From Diphasiastrum complanatum (Eukaryota > Streptophyta > Lycopodiopsida > Lycopodiales > Lycopodiaceae), in the NCBI GenBank assembly GCA_029204225.1, contig CM055095.1, positions 71,589,617 through 71,653,616 of the forward strand: 64,000 nt of DNA. The letters are read 5' to 3'. The notes below the pieces were generated by a model, which saw nothing but the letters and a program-made list of their open reading frames with translations, was not told the origin of the DNA and searched no databases. Of this stretch, positions 23,357 through 63,500 are shown one piece after another. The first letter of the stretch is position 1, and every line of letters starts with the position of its first letter. A program made the translations under genes and the position numbers.

Positions 23357-26300
23357 AAGATGGATCTGTGTAGTAAAGGGGCTTCACTCCAAGCTGCCCA
23401 TCCCAAACCCTATGTATATAGGATCTGTATATAGACTGACAAATAAAGTGATGTGTGCCCTCCAGAAGTGATGATAAAGGAATACCACTGACAATCCCCA
23501 ATATGAACCTTAGAAGCACGTTCCGACCCTTTTGGGTCGGAACGTTCCATTCCGTCCGTTCCGTACGTTCCAAAACGTACTGGGTCGGAACGAGTTAATG
23601 TAATTTAAAAAAATTTGATATATGGGTGGTTTTTTTTTCCTTTGTAAAAAAAACGTATTTTTTTTTTTGAGGGTCCCGTTCCGGAACGGGCAACTAAGGT
23701 ATGAACAAAAGAGAATAATATGTCTAGATGTCTTTGTAGCCCCTTTCTAGAACGTGACATGAGTATAACATCATTAGCATAGAGCATAATCGAAATCAGA
23801 AGGTCACATAGAGTACATCCCTCACCTCCATCATGAATAATCATCCGCTCCAACTCGTCAAATCAAAGTCCAAACAGGGTAGGGGATAGTGAGCATCCAT
23901 GCTTCACTCCAATAGTGTTATAAACATGATGTGGTATGCCCTCCTCAGATCGAGAAAAACCTATCACTCTCTTTTTATAGACCCAAATTGCCAAGAGTGT
24001 GTCTAAATGAAAGCAAAGCTCTTGTAATCTCTGGATAAGTAAGTGTCTTGGAACAAAGTCAAAGGCCTTACGGAAATCCACAAAACAGCAGCATCCCCGC
24101 TCACATCTGGACCTAGCCTCCTCAATAATAGATCTCAAAGTGAATATATGATCCGAGGTGGAGTAATGAGATCAAAAACCTGCTTGGCCCAAAGCATGTA
24201 AGCGTCTGATCTTGGCTTCACTGCTGAATACCGTCTGAAGGATTGAGCCATATACTCTTGCCATAATATGGCCAATCGTTTCTTTGGTCCCAAGTTCGAG
24301 CCAACCAAGAAGCATAATATGGCCAATGATAATAGTACAATAGTTTTCTGGCCTCATAGGATCACCCCCCTTCAGAATGGGATGTATGACGTTGGTGCAC
24401 CAAGAAGTAGGGAAGTTCTAAATGATAGCTTCATTAAAAAGGTCAGAAAGGATGGGGAGCATGGATAAGAAGTCAGTTTCCAGGTCTTCTTTATCATGGG
24501 CACGTCGATTATTGAGGTGTTTAATGGATCCAGATATCATGTTAGGGGTGAAAAGATTGAAGAATGAAGGATAGGGTGAGATGATGATGGGAGAGGTGGT
24601 GTCAATAGTATAAAGAGTCTTTGCGTATTCTATCCAGGTATATAAGCAGTCAAAGTGGTAGAAGGAGCATGAGGGATGAGTTCATGCCAAAAGGCCCTTG
24701 AGGAAGAACTAAAGAGAAGGTTGATAAGCCATCTGCCTCATACCAGGTTCGACTAGGACGATTGGAGGTTTTTGTGTAAGGCATTGATGAGGAAGGCAGA
24801 TTATCTTGGAGCACGAGTGAGGGATGGATGGGAAGTACAGATGACAGTGGGCTTTGTTCCCAAATGGAAAGAGAGAAATGAATGATTGGAAAGAGTAGGA
24901 CATGTGACGGTGAAGGAGGTGATATGAGGAAGAAGTGAAGGTGATCCCATGAGGTAATCTACCACACTATGGCCACCAATGTGAGGGACAAGTGAAATCA
25001 CTCGAAGAAGGCCACCTGGAAATGCCATTGAAAATGGCAATCTCATGGGCTCTCCTAGCTGTGAAAAACCCTGTTCAATCCCCTGATACGTAGAGGGTCT
25101 TGGTCTACAACATGGAATGGTGTCTAACATGATCCAATCTAGCCCCTACCAATAGAATATGTCCTCTGTCAGAAAACCTAATAATATCATCAGACAAATC
25201 CATATATGGAGAACCACCCCTATCTGAGAAAGAAGATGTGTCTGGTGGAAAATAGCATACTGCAATATATATGTCTCAACAAAATACATGCTTTCTCTTG
25301 GCTCTAGCCTCCTCAATGATAGATCTTAGGGTAAAAATATGATCCGATGTTGTATATCCTCGTCTAAAACTGGCCTGGCCAATGGCATAAAGTGCTCTAG
25401 TATCGATCTCTGCGCTGATCTCTGACTGAAGAATAGATCCATAAACTTTGGCAAAGAGGTGGCCAATCATGATGGTACGATGGTTGTCGACTTTCATATG
25501 ATCACTGCCTTTATGGATAGGATGAATAAGGTTTGTGGACCACGAGGAGGGAAAACCAGATGTGATAGCGCTGTTAAATAAGAGGAAAGGCGAGAGGATG
25601 TTAGCAGCATACTTCAAAAGTTCAGCCTCTAATTCATCAATGTCTTTAGCAGCATGGGAGTGTAATTGTTTGATGGCCTCTTCTACCATGTATGGGGAGA
25701 ATATATTAAAAATGTTTGTGGATAAGGGCTTGGGAAGTGGAGGCACATCAAAGACAGTGTACAAGGATGTGGCATAAGTTACCCAAGTGCTAAGATTTGT
25801 CATCCGGGGTTGAGGTGCTCGAGGGAGAAATTTCTTCCAAAAGATGAACTAAAGAGAAGATTTATCATCTTCTTGCCTTGGCGAATCTCATATGCAACTC
25901 TCTTCTTTCGAGTGGTTCTACGGAATACACGAGATAAGTCCTTTACTAGATGTGGGAGGTGGCAGCGTGCGTAGATCAAATTCTAGTGAAGGAGGATGCA
26001 TTCGTGGTTCTACCATGGGTTATGTGTTCGATGATGTCGTGGATGTTTGGATCATGGAAAAGCAAGGGACGCAGTGGTATGGATGGTCTTGACAAGAAAA
26101 AAGTACGGAAAGTGAGTCAAAATTTCCGATAGGGCTTCCTTGTACAAAGCAGTGAGTTGGGGGTGGGGGGTATAGCAATATACAGTCTTCACAATGGGGG
26201 TTAATGGACGGGTGTGTGGGGTGCGAAGAAGGCCAATAGAGAGCGAGAGGTATGAATGGTCAGAGAGGGTAGTGCGGTGAACCAAAAAGGATGCAATGAA

Positions 26301-48473: not shown

Positions 48474-51400
48474 CTATTCCTGCCCTTGTCTTCTTGCTAC
48501 CTATACTTGTCCCTGTCCCTGCCCTCCCTTTTGCCTCCTGAGCTCTCCCTTTTGCCTCCTAAGCTCCTGCTGCCCCCTCGCTATCCCTGCCCTTCCTTTT
48601 GTCTGTCCTTGCCTTTCCTCTACCTTTTCCCTCATTAAACCTGTATCTAGTTGTGGTACTATGGCTGACTGGCAATCTGTGAATCGGAAAGGGAAGAAAA
48701 CCCCTCCCCCTTCTCCCTTTGTCTTCTCAGCCATCCCTATTACAGCTCCCAATCCCTTTACCTTGCCCCCTCCCTCTCCTGCTTCCTCTCCCTCGCCCCT
48801 ACCCTCCACTCCCGCAAGCTACACCTCTTCTCCTACTGCCACTACCCCCTCTACTCTTTCTTCCTCCTCTCCCTCTTTCACCCCCTCATCTTCATCCCCC
48901 CCATTGTCTCCGTCTCTTTCAGCTGAATTTTTATCTGGTTTCCCCCGTATCATTGATTCTCTTCATGAGGACAATGCATCCTTGCTTGCGATCATCAAGA
49001 AACAAGCATCTTAAATCTCCACTCTGGAGAACACGGTCTTAGCCCTACAGGGTAAAGTTGGCATTCTTGAGGTTGATGTTACTTACCTCAAAAATGAAAT
49101 GGAATCAGATAAAGATGGAGAAGAAGGAAGCGGCAATGCAGATTCTGAAAACAAGGCAAAGCAGCTGCAAGAACGGGTTCACTCCTTGGAGTAGCAACTT
49201 CAGCGATCGAAGAGTTCTTGGGCCGACGTGCTCAAGAGTTCTAAGCAGGTTATTTTTGAATCTATTCAAGAACATCAAAAACAAAATCTCAAAGCCCTCA
49301 ATGTCAGGGTTAGGGGAACTTCTTTTGCGGGTAAGGACCTCATGGCTGAGGCAAATGCTTTTATTCATTCCACCTTTGGTCTCAAAGAGGATGTCACATC
49401 TGCTGCTTGGGTGGGTAAGCTCCAACCCACCACAGTGTTTCTGCGATTCAAGGATGCTTTGCTTTGTCAAAAGGTTTTGCATAAAAGAGGCTGCCTGAAG
49501 GGGTCTACTATTTTTATGGATGAAGACTCTTATACAGAGACACACTATACATGCTCCTGTTCACAGGCGACGTCAGCGGGCTCTTGCACTTCCTCATGCT
49601 ACAACTCTCATTACATCCTTCTACAACGCCAGTACAGACCTGGCATCTTGACGTGGACACATTTGACTACCATGCACAGACATTATCATTTATGTAGTTA
49701 TCTTAACTTGTACTAGATGTTTCCTATTTTTTCTAGATTACAGTTTTTGGAGGCGTTTATACGCTCCACGGTTACCACATACTTGACATGTATTTCCTTA
49801 GTCTTATATGCCTTTTGGCATGGAAAAGACATTAATAAAGCTTTCTTCTTTCTTCTTTCTTCTTCTCTCTCTGTCTCCGCCTCCCACCTCCCCAGCCATC
49901 CTCACACCCCCTGCTTACACCCAAGTATACATTCAATTCTCTCTATACACCAGTCTACTAGGAGTTCCTAACCCCCTTGCTCCATTCCTTCCCTCACGAT
50001 AGTACAGTCGAGACTCAAGCTGCCTTTCTTAGCACTTCTCTTCATACCGCTGCTTCCCTTGCTTTCTAAACCCCATAAAAGCATAGGCACCCGCTCCTCA
50101 TCGATACGACCCACACACCCCCTGTGGTATGATGCTGAATGTCGCTCTCTTCATCAGCTTGTCACCCATGCCCGCACTCACGATCCTCATCTCCTCCACT
50201 CCGCCAGGCGCTCTGACCGTCGCACACTCCGCCGAAAAAAGCGTATCTATGATGACTCCGAAGGAACGCGTCTTGTTGATCTTCTCTTCGGTACCTCTTC
50301 AGGAGCCTTTTGGCGTGAGTTTATCCCTCGTGCTCCACCACCCCTCCTGGATGACCTTCGCATATGGACCGAATATGCTACCAAACTATATACCATACCC
50401 ACTGACGCAACCATCTCTATCTCCCCGCGCCCCTCTGAGTTCACCTTCTTCACATCTGACATGGTACTTACGGCCATCAAGAGAATGAAGTCCCATAAAG
50501 CAAGAGATATCGAAGACCTTGAATCTGAACTCCTAACCCATGCTTCCGACCTCCTTGCTCCCACACTAGCCACTCTCCTCAATTCCGCCGTTGTCTCTGG
50601 TTTCCCCTCATCCTGGTGCACCAACATCATCCACCCTATTCATAAAAATGGTGATCTCATGATTCCTGGTAATTACTGCACCATCATGATCGGACATGTT
50701 CTCACGAAGCTCTATGGTACCATACTCCAGTCTGCAGTGAGTTCAGAGGCGGAAGCTCGGAGATTACATGCATTGGGGCAGGCAGGTTTCCGATCTCATT
50801 ATTCTACCACTGACCATATTTTTACACTTCGAGCCTTGATTGAGGAAGCTAAGTACAGGAAAGAGAGGGTTTACTGCTGTTTTGTAGATTTCAGGAAAGC
50901 CTTCGATTCTGTACCACGCTTTCTACTCATTCAGAGACTTCGTGACCTTGGTTTCTCCACAGATATTGTTTTAGCAGTGATGGCTCTTTATGAGAAGGTC
51001 TTGGAATGTTTCCGATATAGCAGTGGCCTATCTGATCACATTTGGAGCACCATTGGGGTGAAACAGGGGTGCTCTCTTTCACCGGTTCTCTTTGGATTGT
51101 ATATTAATGAGTTAAAGCGAGTCATCTCACAGTGTGGCAGGGGTGGGGTGGCTGTAGACTTGGCACCATTCTGATTGCTATTCTCCTTTATGCGGATGAT
51201 GTAGTACTAGTATCCCCGACCAAAGAGGGTTTGCAGAGGCAGCTGGATTGTTTACAGGGATTTTGAACCAGATGGGGGTTGGGGTTGAACACTGCGAAGA
51301 CCAAGGTTATGGTCTTCAACACTTCTCGAGCCTTCATGCAGCGCCAGGAGCTCATCCTAGATGGACATGCCTTAGAGGTAGTTTCCTCTTATACCTATTT

Positions 51401-57500: not shown

Positions 57501-60500
57501 CCACCAACAACATTGATATAAGTATAGAAAAATGTAATCATTGACTTTGACAACCTTTGTGAAACTTTTCTTTCGATCCACACCTTTGATTTTGTTTTCA
57601 AGCCAACAAAACTTAATGTGCAAAAGACCTTTTTCAACTTCCAAAGCTATACACTATTCCTTCAGGGATCAGCCTGTTCCGTAGCTGAAAACGTGCTCCC
57701 CTATGCTAGAAATCCAGCAAAAAAACCCTTTCTGAATTGGGCTAAACAACTTTCATTTGGATTGTTTTGAATGTACAAAATGCAGTATGGTCTGTATTAA
57801 AAGGTACCAAAAGGGATTCTGGTGTAGTGGTTCCAAATGACACTAATATATTTTTTTTTGGTTCTTATCCGGTCCCTCTTCCCTTGAACAGTATATGAGG
57901 CCACATGGTAAAATGGCCTTCTGAATAGGTTTGTTGAGAGAAAAAATCGATTTCTATTGCTCGAATTCGACAGTAGCTTGAATCGATCATTTGGAAAGTT
58001 GAGTTTAACTGTACCTTCACCTTTGATAGCATGTGTGCTATTGTCGCCAAGGTGAACATATTTCTTGGCAGTGTAAGGCATACAGGACTCAAAACAGGCG
58101 ATATGACTAGTCATGTGCTAAGTGGCTCTAGAATCGAGAAACCAGGAGCTATCATCTGATGCTTCTTGATAATTTGTCATGAATGCATCATGCTCCACTT
58201 CTTGATTGGGATGAGATACTTCTGCAGCTTCATTTGCCTATTGATTTGATTGCCATTTGTTGTTGCTCTTGGCCTTTAGTATCCGACAATCCTGAATCTC
58301 GTGGTTGGTTCGTTTGTAGTATCTGCAGAATAGCTTCTTCTTTGTCGGTCGATTCGACTGCTCTTGACTCTAGGTCGGCTTCTGATTCGAGTTCTGTTTC
58401 GGGCCTTTCTTCTTTTGCTTGTTTGAGCTCTTATTTGTGTAGAGGGCGTGAGAGTCAGCATTCAAGGAACTGAAGGACCCGTTCCTTCCATTTTCTTCCT
58501 GTAACAACATTGAAATGACTCTCAATAGAGTCAGATCTAGGTGTGTTGAAATGATCATCACCCAGTTCCCGTAAGCACTTGGCAAGCTTGAAAGCAGTGT
58601 CATTATTGTTAGGAATTAATGCATTATTTAATTCATTGTAGAGGCCAGCCTGCGTGCTAGAAGGTTTATTTCTATTTTTAGTATAAGTATCAATTTTGCT
58701 AGAATAATATAGAAATCTATTTTAACTAAGATAGCAAAGATTTCTATTGTTAAGACTTCATAATTAGCATTCCAATTGCTATTGTAGAAGGATAGCTTTT
58801 GCTTTTGTTTTTGGGCAGTCTCTATAAGAGGAGATGGGCGCCCACCTCCATTGTGATCTCAATTTCCAACTTATGAAGCATAGCTTCTTGCAGTCTCTCT
58901 TCTTCTTCAGCTTGTGGTTGATGATTTGTGTGAGTACTAATAAGGTTAGTCTACTCCGATTAGAGAATCTCTTCGATTCTAACATGGTATCAGAGCCATC
59001 TCGTTAAGATCGGGATCTATGGAAGGAAGGAGAAGATCAGCACTGCAGGTTTTACTGAAGGAGATCGCATCTAGTGGAGGTGCTATTTGGTGAAGGTTGC
59101 ATCTGGTGGAGGCGCCATCTTGTGCAGGTTTTTCTGGTGGAGGTCACATCTGGCGCAGGTAGCTTCTGGACAGGTGGATCTTGGTAAACGGAAGGAAAGG
59201 TCAAGAGTATTTGATACATATTCTCCTTCTACGTCACCTACAAAGAAGTTACCAAGATGGTATTGTGAGACTATACAGGATAGTCAGATTTTGGATGAGG
59301 GAGAATCAAGTCAACAAGGAGCTAAGAGATTGACAAGGTCAAGTGGACACTATCATGAAGATGGTGAACAAACGCATTATGCATTTATGGCTTCATTGTT
59401 GGATTCAAAGGATTTATTTTACAGAACCAAGTTTAAGCTTAATGGTTATATTGAGCCAGATTAGTAACCAAAGGACTTGGTTGTGATCGATAATTAATTA
59501 TCCATTAAGGGGGAGTGTTAGGAATTAATGGATTAATTAATTCATTGTAGAGGCCAGCTTGCGTGCTAGAAGGCCTATTTCTATTTTTAGTATAAGTACC
59601 AATTTTGCTAGAATAGTATAGAAATCTATTTTAACTAAGATAGCATAGATTTCTATTGTTAAGACTTCATAATTAGCATTCCAATTGCTATGGTAGAAGG
59701 ATAGCTTTTACTTTTGTTTTTGGGCAGTCTCTATAAGAGCAGATGGCCGCCCACCTCCATTGTTATCTCAATTTCCAGCTTATGAAGCATAGCTTCTTGT
59801 AGTCTCTCTTCTTCTTCAGCTTGTGGTTGATGATTTGTGTGAGTACTAATAAGATTAGTCTACTCCCATTAGAGAATCTCTTCGATTCTAACAATTATTG
59901 CGTCTTGATCGTCAACGATTGATCCGACAACGGCCATTTGTTGCAGCAGGTTCTTGAACTGGTTGATGTGATTTTGTAATAAATCACCATTGGCCATCCT
60001 GAGGGAGAAAAATTTCCTTCTGAGGTGTAGCTTAGAAGCTACGTTGCGCACATCGTACAGTGTGCTCAAAAATTCCAGACGTCTTTTGAGGTCTGAGCTT
60101 CAGACACATGGCCGATTTGTGTGTCTGAAATGTTGAGGATGATCAACGTGAAGGCCTTGTCATCCTTTAGCTTCCATCGGGAGATTGCAGCGTCGTCGAC
60201 TTCGGGTCTTGCCTCGATACCAGTGACAACCTCATACAAATCTTTTTCATCTTAAATTTCCATGGGTGATAGTTGGATCCATCGGCTTGTCTACAATGAG
60301 ACCAGCCTTGCTTTGGAAATCCATGTGGAAGTTAGTCTAGGTGACAGTAATAACTATCAGTGACTTAAGAAAGAAAATCAAACGCTATTTACAGAACAAG
60401 AAAGCAATTATCCTATCGACTGATAGGATCAAGTCCTGTGGGAAGCTTGTGAGCTATAGAAATAGCTCTAATGTCGTATCAGATTCTGATAACATCGCTC

Positions 60501-63500
60501 TGATACCATGCTTGGGAAAAACTGGATCGTGACGCCGGGATGAAGGTGCGGCAGAAGATGATTCCCTCGGTGCATACACTACGCCTATTCTAATCGAATC
60601 AGGATGGTGAGTTGAACGACTCGACTGATTCTACTGGATTCTAACTTCGAAGTCGTTAAAATCTATGGCATCGATTACGTAGGCAAACACAAGGAAAGTC
60701 TTGCAACTTATAATGCGAAAGCGAACAAGGAACAGACTATTCAAACAAAATATTAAGGGAAGTCAAACAAAATGATTAAGAAAGCATTGCATACATTTTG
60801 ACGACAATTTGAACACAATAAGGCAGTAATTTAATTCAGAAAGAGTATGAAAATACAAGTCAGTCGATGCTGGAGCTATTGGAATATCAATCCACACTCT
60901 AGAGAGAACTATCAAACAGGGCGGATAGCTCAATGGTAGAGCATCCCATCCGGTATGAGGGAGGTCTTGGGTTCGAATCCTAGTCTGTCCATCCATATTA
61001 TGATTTATGGATTTCTAACATGGTATCAGAGCCAAGTTAGACCTAACAGTTCATGGTGTCAAAGCCATGGTTAGGCGGCCCAAGTTGTGGGGCAGGTGAC
61101 AGCTAGGACCCCAACCAAGTGTGGCTTGAGGGGGGGTGTTGGAATATCAATCCACACTCTAGAGAGAACTATCAAACAGGGCGGATAGCTCAATGGTAGA
61201 GCATCCCATCCAATATGAGGGAGGTCCCGGGTTCGAATCCTAGTCTGTCCATCCATATTATGATTTATGGATTTCTAACAGGAGCACAAGACAATTGCGG
61301 GCGAAACCGCGTGCTCAAAAACTATCTTAGTTCTGTAATAGCTATGAGCTTATTCTGACTCTCAATCTGAAAATAAGAATCGATGTGTGAAAACATCTAG
61401 AGTGTCTATCTTGCAGGATTATCATCATCTCATGCGGCAGTTGTGGCTGTCGTTATCCAGACCAAGAGGTGAGGTAGCTGCAGTCATTGTCAAGGCAGTT
61501 GCACAATGGTAGGAATGGCTAGCATAGGTGTCTAGCTTCGTTTTGAGGGTGCCACGTCAGCAGTGATTTCGAAAATTAATCGAGTCGAGGTGGTGACTCT
61601 TTCGAGTTCGACTCCTTCGAGCCTCGACAATTCGACTACGACTGTCGCGTGGCTACCTATCTTCGAATTCCGTGTATTTTTGCAGATTGTGCGACAATGA
61701 GAGTAAATATGCAGCAACATGAATGGAACTAGATTAACATGGGATTTAGGAGAGTGGAGGACTAAATCCAACAAAATCCACATAACTTTCCTACATGATC
61801 AACTCCAATGATATTTATTGCATTCAACAAATATCTTAGAATGTAACCAGTTCAAATATCCATTATACTGAAAAAAAAAAAATTCAGTGCAAAAGTATAA
61901 ACTTTGTTAAAAAAACAACTGAAATCTTTAAAGTTCTTAAACAACACGGAAGATGGGTGTCTTTGATTGTAGTACAAGGAGCAGAACTTACAACCTTCGG
62001 TGGATAAATATGGCATAGATTGAGAAACATGAAAGGCAAATTAGTTATGTCATGAAGAATGACAAATCCTGTCTATTATGGGATAGTACTAAGAAACCCA
62101 TTCCTAAGGTTTTTCCTTAAAAACAGGTCCATTCCTTACTTAGGAATGGGCGTTCCATTCCTAAGGAACAGCTTTTTGAGACCTTGATTAGAAGATGTCT
62201 GCAGCTCATGATCTACAACTTCATGCATCATTTAATATTTGATCCTCGCTTTGAGCATGAGGATGAGGATGTACCCCCTTTTTGTGACGCTGAAGGGCTT
62301 GAATGAATATAACACTGATTTAAAATGTGAGTTGCCTTCGTCAGACAGGAATGATCAGACAGCAAGGGAGTACACACATGACATTGCACAATATAAGAAC
62401 AGAGACAGGAACGAATCACAATCAAACAAAAAAAATCTACCTAAGGAACCATTCCTTAGGTACTTTAAAAATGGTACGGAATGATTCCGTTACTATGAAT
62501 GGTAGAAGATTCCAACAATGGCCATATGTAGTTGAAAACCTGCTATTTGCAACACAGCTCAAATATAAGATGGTCAATTATTGAATGCATATAAAGAAAG
62601 CATTTGATACCTACAAGACTCCTGTGTTTAGGATAGAGCGGGACAGCAACAAAACATCAATGTTTCAAAAGGGAAACAACGATAACAATGAATGTCGCAC
62701 CCCAAACAACATGACAATTGCAATGTAAACTTTACAGCGAGCTATACAATAAACAAGCCTTATTATATTGAAACAATCCTTGAATCTTGATACTCTTCAA
62801 AGAAACTTTTGAAAACTCAACGTCTAAAACTAGAGAATATAGCCTACTTGTTGGATTCACATCGGCTAAAAACTATAACATCTGCTCCGAGCCGCATGGT
62901 ACTAGTCTTGAATCCATTCCCATCTGCAACAAGTTCAGAAGGTGAAATCATACTGCCGCAGGAAAACAGCACACTATGCTATGACGATCAAATAAGTAGC
63001 AGCGTATGTTGTAGAACATTAGCGGTTGTATTTAAGTTAAATAATACTTGATCTTGAACTACAGCGAATGTTCAAGAAGACATATCCAGAAGTTAAAAAA
63101 CGACAACACTATGCAAAACAAGATCACTGCATCATGCCATCCTAAAACAACGAAGTATGACAGCAGATATAATTATATAAGTGCAAGTCATAGTTCCAGC
63201 CCCTGTACTCACATTGGCCTATGGTTGCATTAGTATTCTTCCGAGAATACCCTAAACTCATACAGTGTCTGATGCATTCTGGATCCATTCCACCTCCATC
63301 ATCTAAAAAGCATCAAACGACAATCAAAAACTAAGACCAAGAGGAATACGTGCAGCAATATTTACCCAGTAGACCTCCTTAAGCACACTAAAGCTGGTAA
63401 GCTGAACATTCCAATCCGATTGCTTAAGCTATCAAGAGTGAAAACCATCAGCCAATGCTGATACTTCGCGTAAAAGGCTTACACAAAGTGTGAAAATTCT

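Follow-up and report, generated by a model that had tools for sequence, protein, structure and literature searches.

A complete TRIM whose LTRs each contain a tRNA-like unit

The window, by which we mean the whole 64-kb stretch of Diphasiastrum complanatum DNA that was analysed, contains a complete miniature LTR element (TRIM) of 404 bp at positions 60877-61280. Its two 144-bp LTRs enclose a 116-bp interior, and both are included in a direct repeat (60872-61020 and 61132-61280) whose copies are 95% identical at a start-to-start spacing of 260. The 5' LTR (60877-61020) starts with TA instead of TG and ends with CA, the 3' LTR (61137-61280) reads TG...CA, and the target site duplication GGAGC stands at 60872-60876 and again at 61281-61285. 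The interior (61021-61136), which is too short for retrotransposition proteins, opens with the primer binding site (PBS) TGGTATCAGAGC at 61021-61032, presumably the complement of the 3' end of the initiator Met-tRNA, and closes with the G-rich polypurine tract (PPT) GAGGGGGGG at 61128-61136, directly 5' of the 3' LTR. The duplications aside, all of these features are on the plus strand, and the anatomy of the original prediction (144-116-144 bp, GGAGC duplication, PBS and purine tract) holds together with its coordinates. The PBS 12-mer has five occurrences in the window, one of which, at 58985, lies directly 3' of the LTR of another short element.

Each LTR also carries a 73-nt tRNA-like unit on the plus strand, at 60919-60991 and 61179-61251, so that the first 42 bp of the 5' LTR (60877-60918), judged by their position, form the putative U3. 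These are the only two tRNAs that ARAGORN calls in the window, the first as Thr (GGT) and the second as Ile (AAT), and in a whole-window search the Rfam tRNA model RF00005, with a cut-off of 29 bits, scores them at 46.6 bits (E 8.7e-07) and 43.7 bits (E 5.4e-06), respectively. The unit of the 5' LTR has the box A core TAGCTCAATGG at 60926-60936 and box B GGTTCGAATCC at 60970-60980, both on the plus strand, and no encoded CCA tail. In the printed form of the Infernal alignment, which abbreviates the anticodon arm, the 5' copy has no mark of a non-standard pair and the 3' copy has two marked positions that by their spacing are one T-stem pair; the anticodon arm has 11 nt, against 9 in the model. 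The tRNA-like unit that had been proposed for each LTR is seen alike by ARAGORN and the Rfam covariance model. Comparison with shuffled sequence, suggested originally as a check on the fold, goes against function: the folding energies are no better than those of shuffles (z -0.88 and -0.69; 34 and 47 of 200 shuffled sequences equal or surpass them). The covariance scores, well over the cut-off, answer this result, so that the case for a tRNA relies on the covariance model and not on energy.

Among Rfam models only tRNA exceeds its threshold in the element; no 5S rRNA was found there, and the sole weak extra match is to a plastid UTR model (19.5 bits, cut-off 65.7). The LTR units score far below most tRNA-model matches of the whole genome, of which 59 of 63 scored reach 63-75 bits. 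When 30 high-scoring loci among these 63 were compared with the unit, the best was a Thr tRNA at 0.74 identity, and we claim none of them as the parent. TTTT, the pol III terminator, is absent from the window element and from inside 57 of 62 single copies, which is not significant given that 245 of 500 shuffles have one and about half do not.

Copies in the genome and membership in Helenus

The assembly from which the window comes comprises 1.74 Gb in 5,176 contigs, which we number by size (C1, C2 and so on); the 23 largest, part of which were checked, run from 101.6 to 42.5 Mb, followed by C24 with 10.9 Mb and C25 with 0.39 Mb. Counting 32-mers with up to 3 mismatches over this genome gave 1786 matches for U3, 1797 for U5, 1631 for the 5' half of the tRNA-like unit and 963 for the interior, and 0 for a reversed control. 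The genome thus carries about 960 interiors and about 1,790 LTRs of this TRIM, counts that are inflated to some degree because nine pairs of loci have both flanks in common and represent uncollapsed haplotypes or recent duplications. Several of these pairs (L009/window, L010/L011, L013/L026, L014/L017, L016/L019, L020/L021, L023/L032, L024/L039 and L069/L083) have one partner on a small contig, and L009, the twin of the window copy by its flanks, sits on the small contig C783.

Loci were retrieved as 39 of the best-match regions, as 40 loci on C1 chosen by an intact U3 32-mer alone and as 20 loci on C2 chosen by an intact U5 32-mer alone, and together with the window they yielded 64 single LTR-interior-LTR elements. 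Of their ends, 63 start with TG, the window copy with its TA being the sole exception, and 61 end with CA. A 5-bp target site duplication is exact in 49 of the 64 and agrees at 4 or more of 5 bases in 60, compared with 4.3% under random pairing; counted over the 55 distinct insertions that these elements represent, it is exact in 41 and agrees at 4 or more bases in 52. Seven longer or split structures were printed as well, six of them with one exact duplication at the outer ends. L043 has four interiors and TAATA on either side, and in L073, the seventh structure, the outer ends read ATGAA and AGGAA. Beside a tandem copy, L041:1046-1641 (C3:4650015-4650610) holds pieces in both orientations that are 71-83% like the TRIM LTR, two of which ARAGORN calls as tRNA; they perhaps belong to an older related subfamily.

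TRIMs with tRNA-derived sequence in their LTRs have been described as Helenus from fungi, animals and one plant, Selaginella moellendorffii, and are grouped with Ajax and Cassandra as TRIMp3 (Kojima 2024, PMC10886601). The suggestion that the element might be of an unnamed kind gives way to this publication of 2024. Set beside the features given in the text of that paper, the window element is a further member of Helenus. Its tRNA-derived LTR sequence has a box A of the form TAGCT...TGG, in agreement with the published TRGCY ... YGG, and the published box B GGTTC; it is well under 1 kb, has two LTRs and no proteins for its own movement, and bears a PBS at 61021 and a PPT before 61137 at the ends of its interior. 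It is multicopy, as the interior matches attest, and it makes the 5-bp duplications described for plant and fungal members. The comparison with Helenus-1_SMo is one by description: that element has 5-bp duplications too, with an LTR of 120 and an interior of 85 against 144 and 116 here. Tandem arrays occur both in a zebrafish Helenus family (PMC10886601) and in the present one, and tandem LTR arrays are known from plants (PMC11899658). Among the matches listed in a literature search, titles and the opening lines of abstracts named no tRNA-bearing plant TRIM beyond those of PMC10886601.

The analogy with Cassandra, drawn from the start, is apt in that a pol III unit likewise lies in each LTR of a plant TRIM and long tandem arrays are formed (PMC7215508), although the LTR sequence of Cassandra derives from 5S rRNA and that of the present element from tRNA. 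Ajax TRIMs of nemerteans also have a small-RNA promoter in their LTRs, but it is a partial 5S rRNA and the host is an animal (PMC10886601). With tRNA-derived SINEs the element has the tRNA-like pol III promoter in common; it differs from that class in having LTRs with TG...CA ends, a PBS, a PPT and a target site duplication fixed at 5 bp. A separate pool of SINEs with the same tRNA was not seen at up to 3 mismatches, as the tRNA half does not outnumber either LTR end.

Fusions with Copia elements at the primer binding site

According to the text of PMC10886601, Copia has been proposed as the partner of Helenus in fungi, pol III use by Helenus is inferred and unproven, and the autonomous partner of Cassandra is stated to be unknown. 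In the present genome, many TRIM pieces are joined to foreign elements at the PBS, which those elements have in common with the TRIM. A pattern search listed 55 TRIM interiors without an exact TRIM LTR end before them, the 11 bases in front lacking the first G of the TRIM. Compared with the TRIM LTR end, these 11-base strings have one differing base at 16 sites, two at 4 and three or more at 35 (24 distinct strings). The 16 sites that are one base off are probably merely mutated TRIM LTR ends, and some of the foreign-end sites, for a few of which the flanks were inspected, are on small contigs and may be duplicates.

There are also 85 exact sites at which the TRIM LTR end and PBS are followed by a non-TRIM base. 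We inspected 15 of them, taken in rough steps of six with three more added; six other sites had been picked by eye earlier. Thirteen of the 15 run into a foreign interior, and the remaining two, L160 and L165, into the TRIM's own diverged interior. By eye, eight of the 13 foreign interiors belong to a single family, Copia B, whose leader resembles TACCGGATCTG; L157 and L163, both among these eight, have common flanks and are one event. Several fusion sites are in this way copies of one event, and a TRIM LTR followed by the Copia B leader was found in six separate flanks (L098, L054, L157/L139, L158, L161 and L167), with the last LTR bases of L054 reading like a Copia LTR end.

Copia B is itself abundant, its own LTR-PBS-leader junction having 810 matches genome-wide with up to 3 mismatches and a reversed control 0. 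Reverse transcriptase and integrase domains of the Copia type are encoded in its interior, as seen at C2:31008200-31011700, where pieces match Pfam RVT_2, rve, gag_pre-integrs and Pol_BBD in reading frames that are broken there. At C2:31.007-31.013 Mb, a composite of TRIM LTR, Copia interior, Copia LTR, TRIM interior and TRIM LTR has GATAC on both sides and lies inside a further Copia element, in the RNase H region as judged by eye. Either the composite was inserted as a unit or a resident TRIM later took up Copia cDNA; on both accounts the PBS is where TRIM DNA and Copia DNA came together, as is expected from joint reverse transcription, and we infer that the ends were exchanged through the PBS in plus-strand transfer. 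Recombination of genomic or circular DNA could instead have produced the TRIM-Copia fusions, in place of strand transfer in Copia particles. The fusions at the PBS and the composite with its target site duplication point to Copia as the mobilising partner but do not prove mobilisation. For the chimeras of TRIM LTR and Copia on C5 and C1, the 4.2 and 4.6 kb fetched toward the 3' end held no second TRIM LTR.

Three further loci, L056, L079 and L080 (on C1 near 12.4, 59.5 and 60.8 Mb), hold an identical truncated TRIM whose 3' LTR stops at position 98, with the same flanks. Since this flank looks by eye like coding sequence of Copia B, the chimera or the segment has itself been multiplied.

One chimera bears on the start of the TRIM RNA. 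In L138 (C10:31627500-31630900), the TRIM piece starts at LTR position 42/43, that is, exactly where the tRNA-like unit begins, and stops with the PBS. The chimera lies in a tandem array with a spacing of 971-997 bp, in which each unit runs from a foreign LTR and leader through the TRIM piece to a Copia RNase H end (by eye), a purine tract and the foreign LTR. The host is a short element of another Copia-type family, as judged by eye, and the same junction is present in L164 on C1072. If the L138 junction marks the point where reverse transcriptase reached the 5' end of its template and ran off, the TRIM RNA of this single event began at the first tRNA base.

A search for such junctions as a general pattern, in effect a natural 5' RACE, gave 7 pattern matches against 0 at two control positions and was then dropped, because all 7 were ordinary TRIM LTRs with small changes at or beside positions 41-42. 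As the search needed non-native bases at -1 and -2, it would pass over some of any true junctions, L138 itself among them. No further junction was found, and the argument about the RNA start consequently depends on one amplified event (L138/L164).

The family of the L138 host has a member in the window as well, at 58607-59893. It is a short non-autonomous LTR element with 378-bp LTRs, ATTAT on either side and its PBS at 58985, and it has no tRNA call.

Proposed transcription and mobilisation of the element

How might an element of 404 bp be transcribed and moved? We favour, at a probability of roughly 0.7, the reading that this non-autonomous TRIM of the Helenus type (TRIMp3) is transcribed by pol III, primed by a cellular tRNA, and copied and integrated by Copia proteins. 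In such a cycle, boxes A and B in the unit of the 5' LTR would recruit RNA polymerase III, and the transcript, begun at or near the first tRNA base, would cross the interior and extend into the 3' LTR and beyond it. A cellular tRNA, probably the initiator Met-tRNA, would then prime at TGGTATCAGAGC, after which the Copia reverse transcriptase would copy the RNA and the Copia integrase would insert the product with a 5-bp duplication. The part assigned to Copia is suggested by the fusions at the shared PBS, and the 5-bp duplication is itself observed. If transcription starts at the tRNA-like unit, this unit would be the start of R and would be rebuilt in both LTRs in each round, so that the promoter would travel with the element.

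The chimeras allow a more far-reaching proposal, which we regard as possible yet put forward tentatively. TRIM and Copia cDNAs may swap ends via the common PBS, by which the tRNA-bearing LTR would be passed to protein-coding Copia interiors, giving them a 5' LTR with a pol III unit, and some of the products would be inserted as units; capture at the first tRNA base, as in L138, would then mark where the TRIM RNA truly begins. If this proposal is right, genomic chimeras could serve as a natural 5' RACE on LTR elements driven by pol III.

Alternatively, the tRNA-like unit may be a passenger, left from an old capture of a tRNA or SINE, in an ordinary TRIM that moves in the usual way, with pol II transcribing it from U3 or from promoters nearby. 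We consider this unlikely, as just 42 bp precede the unit in the LTR, with no TATA box by eye, as the L138 chimera begins exactly at the first base of the unit, and as the unit is widely retained. In loci picked by an intact U3 or U5 32-mer alone, and so chosen blind to the unit, at least one ARAGORN tRNA is present in 54 of 60, and the anticodon called is GGT in most, varying between copies. Counted over distinct full LTRs, ARAGORN finds a tRNA in 51 of 58 chosen by U3, 23 of 27 chosen by U5 and 48 of 50 best matches, and the box A core and an exact box B are both present in 31 of 58, 16 of 27 and 38 of 50, respectively.

What speaks for a passenger is the divergence of the unit. Between the paired LTRs of an element, the tRNA part is the region that differs most (5.6%, against 2.8% in U5 and 1.4% in U3), although this comparison is biased to low U3 and U5 rates because some of the rows had been selected beforehand for an intact U3 or U5. 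The G+C content explains a further part of the faster change: at C/G sites outside CpG, rates of 0.070 were obtained for the tRNA part, 0.027 for U3 and 0.051 for U5, and at A/T sites 0.022, 0.006 and 0.021. Slower decay of the tRNA part than of its flanks was accordingly not found between paired LTRs, and selection on the tRNA part is not demonstrated. The check for faster decay that accompanied the original prediction thus goes against function in its raw form and is softened by base composition and preselection; the result does not favour a functional reading and refutes none.

Inherited variation, from which constraint might be read, is likewise nearly absent. Variants common to both LTRs of an element occupy 8 of 2671 cells in the tRNA part, 4 of 1544 in U3 and 0 of 1057 in U5. 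They were tabulated from 37 elements retained of 67, the other 30 having been dropped at 98.5% or higher identity to a retained one; some of those dropped are duplicates of one insertion and others may be separate young insertions, so the retained set leans older. The near-absence of shared variants implies that the family spread from near-identical sources, and for this reason neither selection on boxes A and B nor compensatory change in the stems can be shown. A passenger would fit this lack of visible constraint, as it would the ordinary folding energy.

A role of the unit as RNA rather than mainly as a promoter, for instance to let Copia Gag or reverse transcriptase package or recognise the transcript or to set the RNA 5' end through RNase P cleavage, seems to us very unlikely. 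The single breakpoint does fall at the mature 5' end of the tRNA and not a few bases before it, as cleavage by RNase P would give, but that breakpoint stands for one event. Least credible of all is a function of the unit as an active tRNA gene, or as the primer from which the element's reverse transcription starts. Both Rfam and ARAGORN do recognise a tRNA in it, yet its anticodon arm is irregular, its anticodon changes between copies, its score falls far below 59 of the 63 genome tRNA matches and its 3' end, TCCTAGTCTGTCCA, is not complementary to the PBS, whose complement is GCTCTGATACCA. Of the three roles originally offered for the unit, that of promoter is the most likely; priming by the LTR tRNA finds no support in these 3' ends, and tRNA mimicry is improbable given the anticodon arm and the varying anticodon.

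The present family adds to the account in PMC10886601 what appears to be a second plant carrying Helenus, at about a thousand copies. Fusions with Copia at the PBS, and the chimera whose TRIM part begins with the tRNA, appear to go beyond that account: such fusions were not seen in the text consulted, and the word stem 'chimer' is absent from its main text. The Copia family that is fused to the TRIM at the PBS, with about 800 junctions of its own, provides a concrete candidate partner, and the genome from which the window comes allows this partnership, as well as the start point of a Helenus RNA, to be put to the test. In genome annotation, elements of the Helenus type would inflate tRNA gene counts.

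Elsewhere in the window, reading frames at 50059-51174 (plus strand) and 25276-25803 (minus strand) resemble non-LTR reverse transcriptase by eye.
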